Below, one piece after another: positions 56,022 through 64,000 of a DNA stretch of 64,000 nt. The notes under the pieces were generated by a model. The model was not told where the DNA came from and did no database searches. It worked only from the letters and a program-made list of their open reading frames with translations. Within the stretch, counting starts at the first letter, position 1; the number at the start of each line of letters is the position of its first letter. The translations under genes and the position numbers were made by a program. This DNA comes from Streptomyces aquilus (lineage in GTDB: Bacteria > Actinomycetota > Actinomycetes > Streptomycetales > Streptomycetaceae). The DNA lies in contig NZ_CP034463.1 in NCBI RefSeq assembly GCF_003955715.1, forward strand, positions 8,122,001 through 8,186,000, read 5' to 3'.

Positions 56022-56200
56022 GGCACGACCCTCGCCCCGCGGTCCCCCCACAGTCATCGGCCGCGGGGCGAGCCACGTCCGCCGGAAGTACCCGGAGCGC
56101 GCGACCCCGCCACGCCGAAAGTCGCCTCTCCCGCGACTTTGGTAGGTGATGCCGTCCGCGTGGAGGTGCCGCCGGGATTCCGTGCGTAGATTTGTCGACC

Positions 56201-57451
56201 GTGAGCGGTGACAAGCAGACGGCGGTGCCCCAGTTCTTCGCGGGCCGGCGCTGGCTGCTGCCCTCAGCCGTCCTGAACGAACTCGACCCGGACGCCGACC
56301 GCGCCGGCCGCCGGCCCCGGCGCACCGCCCGCGACTGGCTCGTCGACTTCAGCTGCTTCGTCGTCGCCGTGACCATCGGCCTGATCGGCGCGGACAGCCT
56401 GGCCCGCAACCCCCACGTCTCCGAGAACCTCGCCCATCTCGACCAGCTGATCGGCGCGGTCGCCTGCGGCGCGGTCTGGCTGCGCCGCCGCTGGCCGCTC
56501 GGCCTCGCCGTCGCGACGGTCCCCGTGGGGCTGGTCTCGGACACCGCGGGCGGCGCCTGTCTGATCGCCCTGTTCACCCTCGCCGTGCACCGGCCCTTCC
56601 GGTACGTGGCCTGGCTGGGCGGCATCAACATCGCGCTGATCCCGCTCTACTACTGGATGCGCCCCGACGTCGACCTGCCGTACCTCGCCTCGGTCGTCAT
56701 GACCGTGCTGATGGTCGCGGTGGTGGTCGCCTGCGGTCTGGTCGTGCGCTCCAAGCGGCAGCTCATGCTGAGCCTCCGGGACCGCGCCCGGCGCGCCGAG
56801 ACCGAGGCCCGGTTGCGCGCCGAGCAGGCGCAGCGGCTGGCCCGCGAGGCCATCGCCCGCGAGATGCACGACGTCCTCGCCCACCGGCTGACCCTGCTCA
56901 GCGTGCACGCGGGCGCGCTGGAGTTCCGGCCCGACGCACCCCAGGAGGAGGTCGCCCGGGCGGCCGGCGTGATCCGGGAGAGCGCCCACGAGGCCCTCCA
57001 GGACCTGCGGGAGATCATCGGCGTCCTGCGGGCGGGCGACCAGGACGACACGGGCCGCCCGCAGCCCACCCTCGCCGCCCTCGACGCGCTGGTCGCCGAG
57101 TCCCGCGAGGCCGGCATGAAGGTCGTCCTCGACACCCGCGTCACCGACCCCGCGGTCGTCCCCGCCTCCGTCGGCCGCACCGCCTACCGCATCGCCCAGG
57201 AGGGCCTCACCAACGCCCGCAAACACGCCCCCGGCACCGAGGTCACCGTCTCCGTCGAAGGCGCCCCCGGAGAGGGCCTCACCATCTCCGTCCACAACCC
57301 GGCACCCGACGGCGAGGTGGCCCCCGTACCCGGCTCCGGCCAGGGCCTGATCGGCCTGACCGAACGAGCCACCCTGGCCGGCGGCCGACTGGAACACGGC
57401 CCGGAGGGGGACGGGGGCTTCGGGGTACGGGCCTGGCTGCCCTGGGGGTGA
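56201..57451 (+). CDS. NarL-type sensor histidine kinase
   Basis: A 416-residue HisKA_3-type kinase. Several transmembrane helices (about residues 40-190) precede a coiled linker (RARRAETEARLRAEQAQRLA). The phospho-accepting His is in AREMHDVLAHRLTLLSVHAG (near residue 225). The HATPase_c domain has AYRIAQEGLTNARKHA and GQGLIGLTERATLAGG. The GTG at 56201 has no ribosome-binding site, and TAGATT lies 10 bp upstream, so the mRNA may be leaderless. Its probable partner regulator is at 63799, separated by the CHAT/caspase module; normally such genes adjoin. Confidence 0.9.
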   Translation: MSGDKQTAVPQFFAGRRWLLPSAVLNELDPDADRAGRRPRRTARDWLVDFSCFVVAVTIGLIGADSLARNPHVSENLAHLDQLIGAVACGAVWLRRRWPLGLAVATVPVGLVSDTAGGACLIALFTLAVHRPFRYVAWLGGINIALIPLYYWMRPDVDLPYLASVVMTVLMVAVVVACGLVVRSKRQLMLSLRDRARRAETEARLRAEQAQRLAREAIAREMHDVLAHRLTLLSVHAGALEFRPDAPQEEVARAAGVIRESAHEALQDLREIIGVLRAGDQDDTGRPQPTLAALDALVAESREAGMKVVLDTRVTDPAVVPASVGRTAYRIAQEGLTNARKHAPGTEVTVSVEGAPGEGLTISVHNPAPDGEVAPVPGSGQGLIGLTERATLAGGRLEHGPEGDGGFGVRAWLPWG

Positions 57452-57648
57452 GGGAGGAGCCGGTGACACTCTGCCGACGCCTCGTTCCCGCTCCCCGGGC
57501 TCGCCTCGTGCCGCACCGACCAGCCCCGATGCGCCCCAACTCCGCCCCGTCCACGACCAGGTGACGTCCCATCAACACCCCCTTCGCCGCCCTTCGAACC
57601 CGCTAGCGTGGTCCGCTGTGCGGTACTTGGGGCCGATGCGGCGGGCCG

Positions 57649-57768
57649 GTGATCACAGGGGTGCTGTCGGTCGGCTCCGGGACCGAGGAGGGCGAGCGTC
57701 GGCTCAACGGCGTCCTCGCGTCGTACTGGACTCAGGCCGCGCCACGGCGGCCGGAACGGACGATCTGA
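57649..57768 (+). CDS. Candidate 39-residue ORF before the CHAT gene
   Basis: A short frame from GTG 57649 reads VITGVLSVGSGTEEGERRLN and continues to a TGA one base before the CHAT start. The composition is protein-like, but there is no good ribosome-binding site or homology I can name. It may be a coupled leader peptide. Otherwise the 318-bp gap 57452-57769 holds only a TAGCGT -10-like word near 57604. Confidence 0.25.
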   Translation: MITGVLSVGSGTEEGERRLNGVLASYWTQAAPRRPERTI

Positions 57769-57769
57769 A

Positions 57770-60649
57770 GTGCCGCAGCACGCCTATGACTTGCACGCAC
57801 TGATCTACGAGGTCCAGCAGAGCGCGCGCCAGGGGCTGAACGACGCCCAGGACATGGTCCGGCTCACCTCCCTGGTGCTCGACCATCTGGGCTGCGCCTC
57901 GGGCCGCGAGGCGTACGACATGCTGTACGAGGACTGGAAGGCGCTGCCCCGGGGCACCACGATGTCCGGTCTGCGCGCGGGGCAGATCATCAGCATCCTT
58001 CCCCACCTGATGTTCGACCGGCCGGTCGCCGACGCGGGGCGGCACCGGGAACTCCTGGACGAGGCACGGAAGTACGGGCCGCAGGAACAGGCCTGGCAGG
58101 CCGGCGTCCTGGGGGCGAGCGGCATGCAGGCGATGCAGCACCTGGGCGATCCCGCGGAGTTGGAGGCGTCGCTGGCCCGTCTGGAGGCGTCCCGCGACAT
58201 GCTGCCGCCCGGCAGCCCCCAGCGGGACGCGGTCGAGGTGTCCCATGCCGCAGCCCGTATCCACCTGGCCCAACTCGGCGGCGGCGAGGACGACTTCGAC
58301 TCCGCCGTCGAGGACCTGGCCCGGCTCGCCGACTCCCCGGCCTTAGGCGAACAGCAGCGCGTGGTCCTGGCCGTGCAGCTGGCCGGATACCGCGCCCACC
58401 AGGCCACCCGGCGCGAGGACGAGGACGAACTCGCCCTGCGAATCAGGGAGATGGAGTCCACCCTGGCGCAACTGTCGCCGAACCAGATGGACCGGCCCAA
58501 CCTGGAGGCCTACCTCGACGCCGCCCGCGGCAACCTGCTGGTCCTCCGTGCCCGCCGTACCGGCGAAGACCTCACCGCGGCGGACTTCCCGCCCGCGACT
58601 CCCCTGGACGAGGTGCGACGGCAACTCGGACCGGTCCCGGAGAACACGCGGATCGACCGGCTCGGCGACGTCGGTCTCACCCGTGCGACGCGCGCCATGC
58701 TCGCCGGCGACCACCGGGGCACCGTCGAGGCGCTCGCCCTGGTCGAGGAGGCCATGGACCTGCTGGAGCCCGACGACGAACGGTGGCTGCGCAACGCCGG
58801 CACCCTCGGCATGGCCCACTGCATGCTCGCCATGAACGCCATCGCCCCCCGCGCCGACTGCCCCCACCTCCTGGACCAGGGCATCTCCTGGCTGCGGCAC
58901 ACCCACAAGCTGACCGGCGGACCGGATCACCCGATCTGGGGGAACACCGGGATGGCGCTCGCCATGGCGTACCGGGTGCGCGGCGACTACCTGCATCCAC
59001 GCGACCGCCACGCCAAGCGCCGCAACCACGAGGAGTCCCGGCGCGTCGGCCTCGACGCGCTGCGGTCCGCGGCCTGGCAGGGCATCCTCCAGTCCGGTAC
59101 CGCCCACGCCGCCCAGACCGCCCGGCGGGCCGGCGAGAACGCGCTCGACGTGGCCCGCTGGTGCATCGCCGACGGCGCCCACGCCGACGCCGTCCGCGCC
59201 CTCGACGCCGGACGCGGACTCGCCCTGCATGCCGCGACGGTGGCGACCACCGTGCCCGACCTGCTGGCCGCCGCGGGGCAGCCGGAACTCGCCGACGAAT
59301 GGCGCCGTGCCGGGGCCGTGGTCGCACCCCAGCCGGAGGCCGGGCTGACCCTCGCGGGGCAGCTGCCCGTCTCCGGCCCGTCCAGCCGGTTACGCCGCCG
59401 GGTCCTTAAGGTGCTCTCCGCGTCCCCGCTGCGGCAGCGGCTGCTGGACGCGCCCTCCCCCGAGGAGATCGGCGCGGCCCTGCGCGCCATGGGGGCGACC
59501 GCTCTCGTCTACCTCGTCCCCGGCAGCGCGGAGGACGTGAGCCTGACGGACCGGGTGGTCTTCGGCCGGTACGCCGACGAAGGTCAGGCGCTCATCGTCT
59601 CGGCCGACGGCAGCACCCGGGCCCTGCCCTTGCCCCGACTCCTCGTCGAGGCACCGGAGTTGGCCTCCTACCGTGCCACCGGCACCCCCGGCCGCGACGC
59701 CGGCGGCCCGCCCACCGACCCCACCCCCACCCTCACCCCGCCGCCCCGCCCGGAGGTGAGCCGGGCCGCCCTGGAACGGCTCTGCGACTGGGCCGGTACG
59801 GCGGTGATGGAACCGCTCCTCAAGCACCTCCCGCGCGGCTACGGCCGGGTCCCCTCCGTCGTGCTGGTGCCCATGGCGGAACTCGGCGCCGTGCCCTGGC
59901 ACGCGGCCCGGATGCCCGGGAGGCACGGCCGTCGCGCCTGTCACGAGGCGGACATCTCCTATCTGCCCTCGGCCCGGCTGCTGTGCGAGGTGGCCGCCCG
60001 GCCCGCCACCCGGGTCAGGCAGGCCCTCGTCGTCGGCAACCCCACCCGCGACCTGCACCACGCGGGCGAGGAGGCCGAGGCCATCCACCGCGCCTTCCAC
60101 CCGAAGGGCGAACTGCTGGGCCCCGGCCGGGCCACGCCTGCCGCCGTCACCGACTGGCTGCGCGGGCAGCGCGGCGGACTGCTGCATCTCGCCTGCCACG
60201 GCGTGGTGCGCCAGGGCGAGCGGCACAGCGCCTATCTCGCCCTGTCCGGCGGCGAGTTGGCGGCCGAGGAACTCACCGAGGGCAGCAGCCGCTTCCGGGA
60301 GCTGGAGCTGGTCGTCCTCGCCGCGTGCCGCACCAACGTGTCGGGGCGCGGCTACGACGAGGCGTACAGCCTGTCCACCGCGTTCCTCGTGGCCGGTGCC
60401 CGCTCGGTGATCGGCTCGCTGTGGCCGGTGCCCGACGAGGCGACCTCCCTGCTGATGTACATGACCCACCACTTCATGAGCCGCGACGGCCTCGCGCCCG
60501 GACCCGCCCTGCGCAGCGCGCAGTTGTGGATGCTGGACGACCACCGCACGGCCCCGCCCGGCATGCCGGCCCAACTCCAGGGCCGCGTCCGCCGGATCAG
60601 CGGAGCCGACCTGACCGCCTGGGCCGGCTTCACCCACCTGGGCTGGTGA
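57770..60649 (+). CDS. CHAT-domain (caspase-HetF-associated) protease with TPR-like N-terminus
   Basis: A 959-residue protein. The first about 560 residues are helical repeats of TPR character (DAVRALDAGRGLALHAATVATTV near residue 490). A Pro-rich linker at about 645-665 leads into the CHAT protease domain. Its catalytic dyad is His810 (LLHLACHGVVRQGE) and Cys853 (VVLAACRTNVSG). The end AWAGFTHLGW is typical of the family. CHAT proteases act on partner proteins, sometimes in defence. The gene carries two in-frame TTA codons (58343-58345, Leu192; 59390-59392, Leu541), so translation should need bldA tRNA. It is convergent with a caspase gene, seven bases between stops. Confidence 0.93.
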   Translation: MPQHAYDLHALIYEVQQSARQGLNDAQDMVRLTSLVLDHLGCASGREAYDMLYEDWKALPRGTTMSGLRAGQIISILPHLMFDRPVADAGRHRELLDEARKYGPQEQAWQAGVLGASGMQAMQHLGDPAELEASLARLEASRDMLPPGSPQRDAVEVSHAAARIHLAQLGGGEDDFDSAVEDLARLADSPALGEQQRVVLAVQLAGYRAHQATRREDEDELALRIREMESTLAQLSPNQMDRPNLEAYLDAARGNLLVLRARRTGEDLTAADFPPATPLDEVRRQLGPVPENTRIDRLGDVGLTRATRAMLAGDHRGTVEALALVEEAMDLLEPDDERWLRNAGTLGMAHCMLAMNAIAPRADCPHLLDQGISWLRHTHKLTGGPDHPIWGNTGMALAMAYRVRGDYLHPRDRHAKRRNHEESRRVGLDALRSAAWQGILQSGTAHAAQTARRAGENALDVARWCIADGAHADAVRALDAGRGLALHAATVATTVPDLLAAAGQPELADEWRRAGAVVAPQPEAGLTLAGQLPVSGPSSRLRRRVLKVLSASPLRQRLLDAPSPEEIGAALRAMGATALVYLVPGSAEDVSLTDRVVFGRYADEGQALIVSADGSTRALPLPRLLVEAPELASYRATGTPGRDAGGPPTDPTPTLTPPPRPEVSRAALERLCDWAGTAVMEPLLKHLPRGYGRVPSVVLVPMAELGAVPWHAARMPGRHGRRACHEADISYLPSARLLCEVAARPATRVRQALVVGNPTRDLHHAGEEAEAIHRAFHPKGELLGPGRATPAAVTDWLRGQRGGLLHLACHGVVRQGERHSAYLALSGGELAAEELTEGSSRFRELELVVLAACRTNVSGRGYDEAYSLSTAFLVAGARSVIGSLWPVPDEATSLLMYMTHHFMSRDGLAPGPALRSAQLWMLDDHRTAPPGMPAQLQGRVRRISGADLTAWAGFTHLGW

Positions 60650-60656
60650 ACCGGGT

Positions 60657-62504
60657 TCAGGTGACCTGGGTGCGCACCACGACCTGGGCCGTTCCCCAGC
60701 GGCCCACATGGCCCGCCGGCCCGCCCGCGTCCCGCCTGTGCACCGGCGAAGTGAGCCGCAACAGGCCGCCGTCACCGCCCGCTTCGCTCTCGCGGGGCCC
60801 CGCGGCGGGGCCGGTGGGAGGCCAGGCGGGCAGCCGGAACGGGGCGAGGTTCAGCTCATTCTCGGTCACGATCACCTTCAGCCAGTCCCGCGCGAAGGCT
60901 CCCCGAAGCAACGCCCGCCCCGGCGGCAGCCGCAGCCACACCGGTTCTCCGTGCCGCGCTGAACCGGCCTTGCCGGGCGCGACGAACTCACCCTCGTACA
61001 GATGCGGCGAGCACGCGTAACCATCCGTCAGATCCAGTAATACGCACCACAGTTGACGGTGGGAGTCGTTGTGGACGCGGACCATCACCTGCGGCTCCCG
61101 GCCGTCCGGGGTGTACCCGCAGACGATCTCGCCGTCCGCGCAGTGCTCCACCCGCCCCGCGGAAGTGCCCTCGACGGTCACCCGGACCAGCGACGACAGC
61201 AGGGCGTCGGGATTGTGCAGCTCCAGGATGTGATGCCAACGGGCCAGATGTGCCAGGCAGTCGACGACCCGCTCCGCGTCCGCCCGCGTCCGCAACGGCA
61301 GATCGGGCACCGGATACCCGGCTCCGCCCGACACCCGAGCCCATCCGCCCGCCACGTCCACCCGCAAGGGCAGCCCCTCCCCGCCGTCGGCGAGCACCGG
61401 CACCGGCGCCATGGCCGCCGACAGCAGCCGTACGGCCCCGGCGTCCCCGGCGAGCGTCACGGCGGCGGGCGTGAACGCGAGCGCGGTCGGTGTCACCGGA
61501 TGCGCCAAGTGCCGGTCGCGCGGCCCGGGTTGCCAGCCGTCCGGGTCCACCAGACAGGACTCGGGCAGCACATGGCGTACGACAACCTTGCGTGACGCGA
61601 GCCCGCCCATCAGAGTGAACTCCGCGCCGGCCGCCCGCAGCCCGTGCGCCCGGCCGCAGTTGACCTCCCAGCCGGACGTCGTGTGCCGCAGCAGGAACGG
61701 CCCGGCCGAGACCGGATCCCCCGACAGGAAGCCGCCGTTCTCCGGGCCACGCAGCTGGGGATGCTGGAACGGCGTCCTCGCGCGCACCCCCTCCTCTGCC
61801 AGCGCGTGCAGCGCGCCGTACGCGGCGGCGGGCCCCAGCCGGTCGAGCGCGCCCAGCAGCGCGTGACTGAAGTAGCCGCGGTACCGTCCGTCGATGTCGT
61901 TCTCGTGCGCGCGCTCGTCCGGACGGCAGGCCGCGAGCAGCACATGCCGCGCCGCCTCGGCATCCGCGCCGCCGGCCTCACGGACCCGGGCCGGGATCCG
62001 CCACCACGGTTGCCAGTCGACTCCCCGCCCCGTCCCGCCGGGCGGCCCGAAGCCGAGGTCGCGGGTGGCGCCGCCCGCGTGGCAGCAGTCGAGGACCGCG
62101 AGGACATGGCTGCCGTGCGCCGCGATGCCGTCGAGCAGCGCGCCGAGCTCGCTGTCCTGGAGCATCGGCCGGCCGCCCGGCCCCAGACTGTCCTGGCACA
62201 CCAGCGCCTGCGCCCAGCCGGTCGCCTCGCGCGGATCGTCGGTGCGGTACTCGCTGCCGTGCCCGCTGAACCAGAACAGCGCGGTGTCGTCCCGCCCGCA
62301 CTGCCCGAGATGCCGCTCCACGGCCGCCAGCACGGCCGCCCTGGAGGCCTCCTTGTCGTGCAGGGCCTTGACCACGGGCGTCAGCGCCCCGGTCTGCCGC
62401 CGCAGCCAACGCTCCGCTTCTCTCGCGTCGTTGACGCAGCCCCGCAGCCGATGGCGTCCGGGATAGTCGTCGATGCCCACGAACAAGGCGTACACGGTGC
62501 GCAT
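60657..62504 (-). CDS. Caspase-family (peptidase C14) protein
   Basis: A 615-residue protein with an N-terminal caspase-like domain of about 270 residues. The opening RTVYALFVGIDDYPGRH is typical. The catalytic dyad is His82 (WFSGHGSEYR) and Cys141 (LDCCHAGG). The C-terminal half is beta-rich, with WLRLPPGRALLRGAFARDWLKV close to the end, resembling the DUF4384-type domains that follow bacterial caspases. It has one in-frame TTA codon (complement of 61038-61040, residue 489). The ATG at 62504 gives MRTVYALFVG; the frame runs further upstream without support. It faces the CHAT gene tail to tail. Confidence 0.92.
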   Translation of the reverse strand: MRTVYALFVGIDDYPGRHRLRGCVNDAREAERWLRRQTGALTPVVKALHDKEASRAAVLAAVERHLGQCGRDDTALFWFSGHGSEYRTDDPREATGWAQALVCQDSLGPGGRPMLQDSELGALLDGIAAHGSHVLAVLDCCHAGGATRDLGFGPPGGTGRGVDWQPWWRIPARVREAGGADAEAARHVLLAACRPDERAHENDIDGRYRGYFSHALLGALDRLGPAAAYGALHALAEEGVRARTPFQHPQLRGPENGGFLSGDPVSAGPFLLRHTTSGWEVNCGRAHGLRAAGAEFTLMGGLASRKVVVRHVLPESCLVDPDGWQPGPRDRHLAHPVTPTALAFTPAAVTLAGDAGAVRLLSAAMAPVPVLADGGEGLPLRVDVAGGWARVSGGAGYPVPDLPLRTRADAERVVDCLAHLARWHHILELHNPDALLSSLVRVTVEGTSAGRVEHCADGEIVCGYTPDGREPQVMVRVHNDSHRQLWCVLLDLTDGYACSPHLYEGEFVAPGKAGSARHGEPVWLRLPPGRALLRGAFARDWLKVIVTENELNLAPFRLPAWPPTGPAAGPRESEAGGDGGLLRLTSPVHRRDAGGPAGHVGRWGTAQVVVRTQVT

Positions 62505-62673
62505 ACGGCGATCTTGCCAGCAATGACAGGGCGCATACGGGGCGTTCACGGGGCGTGAGCGGGTCGGATCCGCGCAACCCCCTGACCCGGCGGCGCGAAG
62601 CGAGTTGACTGGAGCGCACCGCTCGGCCGCCTCGCGCGGGCGCGGCACCGCGAACACCGGAAGGAACAGCAGC

Positions 62674-63753
62674 GTGAGCTTCGGGGGACCCAACAATCCG
62701 TACCAGCCGCCGTATCAACCACCACCGACGAACCCGTACCAGCCACCACCTCCCAACCCCGGTCCGTACGGCCCGCCTCCACCACCCCCGAACACCGGGC
62801 CCTACGTCCCGCCCCAGCCGTATCCGTACCCCAACCCCTACCCGTACCCCAATCCTTTCCCGCCGTACGTCCCGCGGCCGCGCCCGGGTGGCCTGCTGGG
62901 CGGTCTGCGCGGCGCCGAATGGCCGCCCCTGCGCGACCTGTTGCGCAGCGGACGGCAGCGGATGCACGGCTGCGCATGGCTGTTCCTGTTGCTGCCGTGC
63001 ACCTGGTTCGTGGTGCCCGGCCTGATGGTGGCGTACGTGTTCGCCCGCTCGGCCCGCGTCAGGGCGCACCGCCTCTTCCCGCCGCGCGCCCACCGCCTCT
63101 ACCACGACCCGCAGGTGACACGCCTTCAGAAGGCGCGGGCCCTGAGCGCGGCCGCCATGACCCTCGCCCTGCTCGTTGCCTACGGCAAGCCGGAGGACTT
63201 CGGCGAGGTCGAGCAGCAGTACGTGATTCGGCTCATGGTCACCCCGCCGCTGCTGCTCCTGAGCGCCCCCCTGGTGATCGCGGTGGTGTACCGCTGGGCG
63301 CCGCCGCACGCCAGGCCGTACATGGGTCAGCGGGTGCGCGCCGCGGGCAAGGCCGCCCTGTGGTACGTCGGCGCGGTGACGGCGATTTCCTTGATCATCA
63401 GCATATTCGCGCTGCTCGAATGGAAGGGACTGGCCACCGACGACGTGCCCTGGCTCGTCATCCCGTTCATGGTGTCCTTGTTCTGGCTGCTGTTCTTCCT
63501 GGCGTTCGCCACCGGCCCCGCCGTGCGCAGCGGTTTCAACTCCGCCGAGGTGCACGCGGCGCTGCCCGCCCTGCTCACCTGCGTGCTGGTCTGGGAGTTC
63601 GCGATCATCAGCCTGGCCGCGGGCGGACCGCCGCCCGGACCGCCCCTCGTCTCGGTCCTGGCGTTCGTCGGCGGCCCGGCCTCGGTGTGCGCGGTGGCCT
63701 GGTGGGAGGTTCACCGGCTCCAGACCCGGCACGGAGTGCGGCTGCGCGGCTGA
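62674..63753 (+). CDS. Proline-rich polytopic membrane protein
   Basis: A 359-residue protein. The first about 80 residues are a Pro/Tyr/Asn-rich disordered tail with repeated PYQPP and PYPNP words. Six or seven hydrophobic segments follow, from WLFLLLPCTWFVVPGLMVAYVF to SVLAFVGGPASVCAVAWW. It is divergent from the caspase gene, with about 170 bp between starts. The GTG at 62674 has AAGGAA upstream. It could be a membrane target or effector of the two proteases, or unrelated. No signal peptide. Confidence 0.75.
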   Translation: MSFGGPNNPYQPPYQPPPTNPYQPPPPNPGPYGPPPPPPNTGPYVPPQPYPYPNPYPYPNPFPPYVPRPRPGGLLGGLRGAEWPPLRDLLRSGRQRMHGCAWLFLLLPCTWFVVPGLMVAYVFARSARVRAHRLFPPRAHRLYHDPQVTRLQKARALSAAAMTLALLVAYGKPEDFGEVEQQYVIRLMVTPPLLLLSAPLVIAVVYRWAPPHARPYMGQRVRAAGKAALWYVGAVTAISLIISIFALLEWKGLATDDVPWLVIPFMVSLFWLLFFLAFATGPAVRSGFNSAEVHAALPALLTCVLVWEFAIISLAAGGPPPGPPLVSVLAFVGGPASVCAVAWWEVHRLQTRHGVRLRG

Positions 63754-63798
63754 CGGCATGGCAAGTGCGCCCCTCGAAACCGTGATTACGTAAGCCCC

Positions 63799-64000
63799 AT
63801 GACCGCGATCAGACTGCTCCTCGTCGACGACGATCCGCTGGTGCGGGCCGGCCTGTCCCTGATGATCGGTGGTGCCGACGGCATCGAGATCGTCGGGGAG
63901 GCCGCCGACGGAAGCGATGTCGAGGCGCTCGTCGACCGCAGCCGCCCGGACGTCGTCCTCATGGACATCCGGATGCCGTCCATGGACGGCCTGACCGCCA
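63799..64000 (+). CDS. NarL/FixJ family response regulator (partial, cut by window end)
   Basis: The visible 67 residues are a receiver domain: IRLLLVDDDPLVRAGL gives the acidic pair, and the phospho-accepting Asp is in VVLMDIRMPSMDGLTA (residue 55 or so). The C-terminal LuxR-type HTH should follow beyond position 64000. The kinase at 56201-57451 is of the matching NarL type and strand, so they are a probable pair split by about 6.3 kb. Confidence 0.88.
   Translation, partial: MTAIRLLLVDDDPLVRAGLSLMIGGADGIEIVGEAADGSDVEALVDRSRPDVVLMDIRMPSMDGLTA

Follow-up and report, generated by a model that had tools for sequence, protein, structure and literature searches.

RES proteins (PF08808) are known from modules such as RES-Xre, MbcT-MbcA and NatT-NatR, in which they are accompanied by a partner gene located directly upstream. 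CHAT proteases are known from type III-B CRISPR systems, where SAVED-CHAT works with a separate caspase-like protease, PCaspase, and from Craspase, whose TPR-CHAT protein is Csx29. For the former, PMC11229360 speaks of a "cascade of proteolytic activity", and in the Canu system a caspase is paired with a nuclease, the partner enzyme being switched on by proteolysis (PMC12799240). The RES enzyme NatT has been reported to be a nicotinamide adenine dinucleotide (NAD+) phosphorylase releasing ADP-ribose-1''-phosphate; in the same source, the physiological role of RES-type toxins is called unclear, and TIR and SIR2 enzymes are given as the known NAD-targeting immunity (PMC11535050). Here we describe a six-gene unit of Streptomyces that combines a RES protein with a CHAT protease and a caspase, starting from a 64,000-nucleotide stretch of the Streptomyces aquilus genome (G000, a single contig of 10.39 Mb; G000:C1:8122001-8186000), hereafter called the window. 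In its full form the unit encodes, in this order, a macrodomain protein, a protein of ~218 amino acids without assigned family (C16), the RES protein, the CHAT protease, the convergently oriented caspase and a membrane protein. The unit and its toxin-less derivatives are the main finding beyond an earlier note on this DNA, which had missed that the window copy is itself such a derivative, having lost the macro-C16-RES cassette.

With RES-Xre-type modules the unit shares the RES protein and the partner gene directly upstream, and RES partners encoded on plasmids are remotely related to the C-terminus of C16. It differs in that nine C16 proteins gave no match to the Xre/MbcA/ParS toxin-binding domain in Pfam, and in that it also includes a macrodomain protein along with either one or two proteases of the caspase clan. 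The presence of a CHAT protein plus a separate caspase-like protease is shared with SAVED-CHAT and PCaspase, which provide a precedent for a cascade that may work alike; however, the unit's genes include no CRISPR gene, its candidate output is an NAD+ toxin, and no SAVED domain was found in the 959-residue CHAT protein of the window (Pfam, E ≤ 0.1, a threshold that a highly diverged domain could escape). The CHAT core aligns over ~96 residues (E 1.4e-6) with chains of solved structures labelled "CHAT domain protein", for example 8d9f, which we take to be Csx29 of Craspase, but the protein scores below the NCBIfam cut-off for Csx29 (36.8 vs 300 bits), and the unit's genes include no Cas7-11 and comprise a separate caspase. 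As in Canu, a caspase is accompanied by a toxic enzyme, predicted as such in the unit, whereas the partners here are RES, macrodomain and CHAT proteins instead of a nuclease. EACC1-associated two-gene systems contain an actinobacterial caspase-domain protein with extra C-terminal sequence (PMC7159879), a feature that is shared by the caspase of the unit; the latter nevertheless falls below the NCBIfam caspase_w_EACC1 cut-off (40.5 vs 140 bits). The PADLOC search yielded a match to its caspase model (E 8.5e-32) and weak matches to BovA. Bacterial gasdermins are soluble, whereas six hydrophobic segments (Kyte-Doolittle) are predicted in the membrane protein of the unit; in this comparison by sequence, none of the models of Pfam, PADLOC and NCBIfam matched the latter at E ≤ 0.1. 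Among the literature matches listed, we found no description of the macro-C16-RES-CHAT-caspase combination, with most subscription papers and bioRxiv preprints lying outside the coverage. In the literature searched, "RES domain" was co-mentioned neither with "CHAT domain" nor with caspase and "macro domain"; RES domain, CHAT and caspase together are terms of one listed paper, PMC12356396, on ADP-ribosyl cyclase toxins.

In the window, the surviving part of the unit starts with the CHAT gene (57770..60649, forward strand; PF12770, E 1.1e-53), followed by the convergent caspase gene (60657..62504, reverse strand; C14 family, 615 amino acids; PF00656, E 1.2e-16) and the gene for the membrane protein (~62674..63753, forward strand; GTG start, with an upstream TTG at 62605 as a possible alternative). 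Gene calls around relatives of the CHAT gene revealed the three extra genes directly upstream of it: one for a macro protein of ~377 amino acids with a C-terminal macrodomain (PF01661), one for C16, and one for a RES protein of 224 amino acids, which matches PF08808 with 64 bits against a cut-off of 23.2 and is predicted to be an NAD+ phosphorylase. Between the RES stop codon and the CHAT start there is just one base at eight of the ten loci displayed, the others being L016, where the gene calls overlap, and L054, where the distance is wider. A RES alignment was then searched against 343 Streptomyces genomes, with eight candidates scored per genome, so that weak copies may be missed; it recovered at least 59 places in 52 genomes, of which 22, in 22 genomes, scored 321-469 bits and the others at most 195. 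In these 22 strong places, RES is always immediately preceded by C16 and the caspase is likewise always present, CHAT is found in 21 and the macro gene directly upstream in 20, the exceptions being G120 (L104, a contig edge), where it lies beyond the caspase, and G075, where none was found.

Two diverged subtypes can be distinguished among the strong places. Subtype A (nine places) has a CHAT protein of ~950 amino acids and a membrane protein, which adjoins the caspase in all nine. Subtype B (12 places) has a CHAT protein of ~1370 amino acids and no match to the membrane protein, the neighbour in L098 being invisible as the contig ends inside the caspase; in nine of the 12, the caspase is followed by a ~590-residue protein that by eye appears to contain coiled-coil and membrane-spanning parts. 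The layout with the ~1370-residue CHAT and the ~590-residue protein was noted for L094-L097, L099-L102, L037 and L038, the last two of which also gave a match to an AAA ATPase gene; the best PADLOC match of the L037 ATPase is IetA. In a class-wide sample of 394 genomes, the six RES matches above 350 bits came solely from Streptomyces, and four genomes of other genera scored 146-187 bits. The unit also occurs on a plasmid, as all six genes are present in the same order on pSCL4 of S. clavuligerus (NZ_CP016560.1). RES, CHAT and macro have matches of 60-80% in sixteen PLSDB records, all from S. clavuligerus; gene order was viewed in NZ_CP016560.1 alone, and in some of the others, such as NZ_CP065249.1, a long distance separates the top-scoring CHAT place from the top-scoring RES place. 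Three of the at least 37 weaker RES places (L105-L107) were viewed over 18 kb each; all three contain a macro gene, a CHAT gene and a C16-like gene in that span, and no caspase of this type was found there. Together with L134, of which 3.7 kb was available, they point to a wider family in which pairs of a C16-like and a RES gene lie near CHAT and macro genes.

CHAT and caspase are a recurrent pair, beyond chance. In a neighbourhood search of 101 Streptomyces genomes, six of seven caspase loci of the window type (E ≤ 1e-40) had a directly convergent CHAT gene of that type and six of nine CHAT loci of the window type (E ≤ 1e-60) had such a caspase, the rest being two loci in G091 and one in G096, bearing out the suggestion of the earlier note that the two belong together. 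Family match and His/Cys dyad qualify both as probable clan CD proteases. The gene positions, strands and complete dyads that the note had listed were all found in place; His810/Cys853 of CHAT and His82/Cys141 of the caspase show no variation in alignments of ten rows for each protein, and across 39 loci the dyads are present wherever the region is readable, with the exception of the patchy L019 caspase. (The look-up was unreadable or the residue or gene absent for the L020 CHAT histidine, the L098 caspase at a contig edge, the L039 CHAT and the L105-L107 caspase.) Of the designation TPR-CHAT, in contrast, only the CHAT part could be upheld, since the N-terminal ~670 residues gave no Pfam match at E ≤ 0.1. 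The nearest solved structures of the caspase by sequence are metacaspases; its structure model has a predicted local distance difference test (pLDDT) score of 51.3, with an unreliable C-terminal part. A phage collection yielded a single distant caspase match (24% identity over 41% of the query), and full-length relatives with 27-33% identity reside on Nostoc, Deinococcus and Rhizobium plasmids, beside other genes; a CHAT gene lies near the one on the Rhizobium plasmid, and RES, macro and C16 queries (E ≤ 1e-4) found no match in these plasmid regions. A convergent CHAT-caspase pair exists in another genus, on the Embleya plasmid L138 (9001-12846), where RES, macro and C16 were unmatched within 20 kb.

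The window copy looks like a deletion derivative that has lost the macro-C16-RES cassette. When the RES protein of L013 was compared with the whole window by tblastn, the sole match was at 57655-57765 (37 codons, 76% identity, E 6e-11), immediately in front of the CHAT gene. This scar (57655..57768, forward strand; confirmed by a frame check) comprises the C-terminal 37 codons of the RES gene plus its stop codon, a TGA one base ahead of the CHAT GTG; counted from a GTG, the open frame spans 39 codons. It overlaps a relic of the macro-gene leader (57625..57668, forward strand; CTTGnGGCC...GATCA...), recognizable from an alignment of 12 upstream regions and now located 5' of CHAT, in which the macro start codon reads CTG. 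Scars are also present in L010, L011 and L015, with uninterrupted frames of 53, 91 and 20 codons, respectively, between the macro ATG and the RES stop; in all four scars the frame into CHAT is open. The trees for CHAT and caspase, from which the fragmentary L019 and L020 were left out, both group the window with L010, L011, L013, L091 and L012, while disagreeing on L011 and L013. L015 belongs to a different clade than the window, L010 and L011, so that the cassette must have been lost at least twice, and as the trees conflict, we limit the claim to these two losses, one in L015 and one in the window group. In the kinase-regulator tree, the filled site L091 falls with unit-less sites, and the frame-broken kinases of L015 and L050 form long branches.

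S. aquilus has a second locus (L039 3981-8381; G000:C1:6679980-6684380), which encodes macro, C16, RES and caspase of a diverged subtype and no CHAT. Combined with the CHAT-caspase pair of the window it would make a full set. We rejected such complementation as a general rule, because the cassette is gone from L010, L011 and L015, whose genomes, some of them drafts, gave no RES match at E ≤ 1e-30.

The unit appears to have been inserted between a NarL-type sensor histidine kinase and a NarL-type response regulator that adjoin in most relatives. In the window, the kinase gene lies upstream of the unit (56201..57451, forward strand; HisKA_3, E 2.6e-15), GTG 56201 being the start given in the earlier note and the open reading frame extending to TTG 56192 (56192-57451); the regulator follows the membrane protein (63799..64000, forward strand, and on to C1:8186479; the whole gene is L009 11799-12479). 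Of the 101 Streptomyces genomes, counting S. aquilus, 67 yielded the kinase, 71 the regulator and 66 both of them, and in 64 they were paired, that is, on the same contig and strand within 20 kb. The gap between them is at most 400 bp in 54 of the 64 pairs, 0.4-1.5 kb in eight and more than 2.5 kb in two, and both of these large gaps (G000, G009) contain the unit. The right border of the insertion is marked by the conserved leader element of the regulator, CCGTGATTACGTAAG in the window (63780..63794, forward strand), whose shared form CCGTGATTACGTA is present in all eight filled sites displayed and in five of seven unit-less sites (not in L053 and L049). An insertion at this place, with a border to be found by comparing related genomes, had been anticipated by the earlier note. 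The gap seems tolerant of insertions in general, since two of the gaps of intermediate size contain another single gene, a zinc-binding, alcohol dehydrogenase-like one in L049 (7708-8610) and an aldo/keto reductase in L051 (5621-6655).

The proposal that the two-component system controls the unit, however, found no support. The unit is found at loci without kinase or regulator match (L036 in G035, L018, L093), and also at L016/L035 and on pSCL4 (L054) without the pair; in G075 it is located on contig 1, with an adjacent kinase-regulator pair on contig 6, and in L017/L089 the whole unit persists between mere fragments of the two genes. (Genomes reached twice were counted once: L012 = L090, L016 = L035, L017 = L089, L018 = L092.) At the eight filled sites displayed, moreover, the regulator keeps its own leader. 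Based on the gap counts and the occurrence of the unit at other sites, kinase and regulator look like bystanders.

Similarity to other RES partners is suggestive, and only suggestive, of C16 being an antidote. In pairwise hhalign comparisons over the C-terminal 63-74 columns, using a profile that included L105-L107, C16 matched the partners of stand-alone RES genes, both those from Rhodococcus plasmids (probability 98, E 2e-13) and those from proteobacterial plasmids (probability 96, E 4e-9). Of the four proteobacterial partners scanned, two graze the Xre/MbcA/ParS domain (E 0.013 and 0.033), while another touches a middle domain related to it (E 0.046); none of these matches reaches the cut-off. 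Units of just two genes, RES preceded by a partner that lacks annotation (L108-L115), were seen on plasmids of Rhodococcus, Pantoea, Enterobacter, Sphingobium, Aeromonas and Caulobacter. Searches of solved structures with C16, RES and macro profiles returned nothing significant; the best matches of the macro profile include macrodomains at E 0.14-0.45, and we do not count them as evidence.

What might such a unit do? We see about an even chance that the full unit arrests growth by depleting NAD+ under the control of its proteases, and that the window has retained the protease arm of this system together with the membrane protein. The RES protein would act as an NAD+ phosphorylase and would be silenced by C16, which is encoded immediately upstream. 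Some stress or invader would be sensed via the N-terminal part of CHAT, upon which CHAT and/or the caspase would cut C16, or one protease would activate the other, which in turn would cut C16. Cleavage of C16 would free RES, NAD+ would fall and growth would stop, while the macro protein might bind or remove ADP-ribose-1''-phosphate, the RES product. Macrodomains act on this compound (PMC9503650), making the neighbourhood of macro and RES a good chemical fit. Release of RES through cutting of C16 is the simplest model that joins the parts. With the cassette deleted in the window lineage, CHAT now follows directly on the ancestral leader, while the genes for both proteases and for the membrane protein retain intact frames at low dN/dS (ratio of nonsynonymous to synonymous substitution rates). 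The RES-less protease pair may have its output in the membrane protein or in other proteins of the cell.

A number of observations weigh against this proposal. C16 gave no match of note in Pfam, NCBIfam or PADLOC, and its structure model is poor (pLDDT 49.6); macro, C16 and RES of L013 and L039 were likewise unmatched in PADLOC. The macrodomain match lies near its cut-off (23.7 vs 22 bits), and that of L091, with 17.9 bits, stays under it. That the scars are in frame carries little weight, since each independent loss would leave the frame open by chance in one of three cases and only two losses are certain. The RES enzyme cannot be the only output of the proteases, since a CHAT-caspase pair is kept without RES match in the genome (E ≤ 1e-30) in L010, L011 and L015 as well as in the subtype B locus L038 (G033), where no cassette match was found at E ≤ 0.01. 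Finally, CHAT is not obligatory either, since macro-C16-RES-caspase loci without it exist in three genomes, G000 (L039) and, from the class-wide sample, G645 (L127) and G579 (L129).

More tentatively, and with a probability that we put below that of the growth-arrest system, the unit could be an unrecognised modular system of immunity or altruistic arrest. The proteases would then release RES, or ADP-ribose-1''-phosphate would be a messenger to the macro protein and the caspase, and the toxin-less copies would be tamed descendants with a new output.

A doubtful alternative makes the messenger the core of the system: RES would produce ADP-ribose-1''-phosphate, the macro protein would read or erase this messenger, and the effector that is switched on would be the caspase, either alone or together with CHAT. 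The distinct small product of RES enzymes and the action of macrodomains on it, both known from the sources cited above, are in line with this, as is a report, cited by title in PMC12799240, of TIR signalling activating caspase-like immunity. It would also accommodate the three CHAT-less loci and the presence of the caspase in every strong place examined; the caspase is indeed the common element of the strong and the cassette-less places examined, neither CHAT nor RES being obligatory. CHAT-caspase pairs nevertheless persist in genomes without RES match (E ≤ 1e-30), and no ligand site was identified on the caspase, the C-terminal part of whose model is unreliable. The existence of both CHAT-less and RES-less variants keeps the messenger idea alive and limits our confidence in the release model.

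The earlier note itself had proposed a two-protease cascade with the membrane protein as possible target, inserted into or controlled by a two-component system; as a rival reading, the membrane protein would be a cleaved, pore-like effector and the two-component system would be in control. The membrane protein, whose residues 1-75 contain 47% proline, is a constant partner within subtype A; its gene has been kept after cassette loss in the window, L010 and L011, and dN/dS is 0.32-0.45 in four pairs, the window-L010 pair not being among them. As a common partner of the unit it nevertheless fails outside this subtype, as none of the 12 places of subtype B gave a match and the gene is absent from L015. 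Relatives of the membrane protein are moreover found in 42 of the 101 genomes (E ≤ 1e-3), mostly without the unit, and the unit, in turn, occurs without kinase or regulator. We thus regard this model as unlikely, and the macro-C16-RES cassette as the likelier output of the proteases.

Similarly unlikely is that the genes left after loss of the toxin cassette are functionless remnants in the process of being lost. Repeated loss of the cassette, the additional absence of the membrane gene from L015, and the broken-up CHAT and/or caspase genes of L019 and L020 (drafts in which sequencing errors are possible) would fit with decay. The window, L010, L011 and L015, however, retain full CHAT and caspase frames with both dyads, besides the open frame into CHAT in all four scars. 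For the whole genes, dN/dS is 0.22 (CHAT) and 0.27 (caspase) between the window and L010, 0.45 and 0.25 between L015 and L014, and 0.19-0.45 over the five pairs with a cassette-less member, averages that include time before the loss; for RES it is 0.13 and 0.16 in two intact pairs. That the genes are mere passengers held together by drift is highly improbable, for although variants without one part or another exist, the same gene order recurs at different sites of the chromosome, on a plasmid, and across both of the diverged subtypes.

In the surroundings of the unit, a barnase-type ribonuclease gene (PF00545; 55363-55752) lies just 5' of the kinase and is kept at most loci of this site, in inverted orientation in some (L010, L011). 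A paralogue of the membrane protein (37%) is encoded ~11 kb beyond the end of the window (G000:C1:8197358-8198101; L040 7392-8102), adjoining a SWIM zinc-finger gene, an arrangement similar to that in L050.

By placing a RES protein, a possible antidote and a macro protein beside two caspase-clan proteases, the unit makes the question of what triggers RES toxins directly testable, and its natural loss variants, without RES, without CHAT or without the membrane protein, can be compared as they stand. The derivatives also hint at a way for a suicide-type module to discard the toxin and yet keep its protease core. If the reading as an immunity or arrest system is correct, RES enzymes would acquire both a trigger and an immune function, and the proteases of the tamed copies in the window, L010, L011 and L015 would have turned to a new output.

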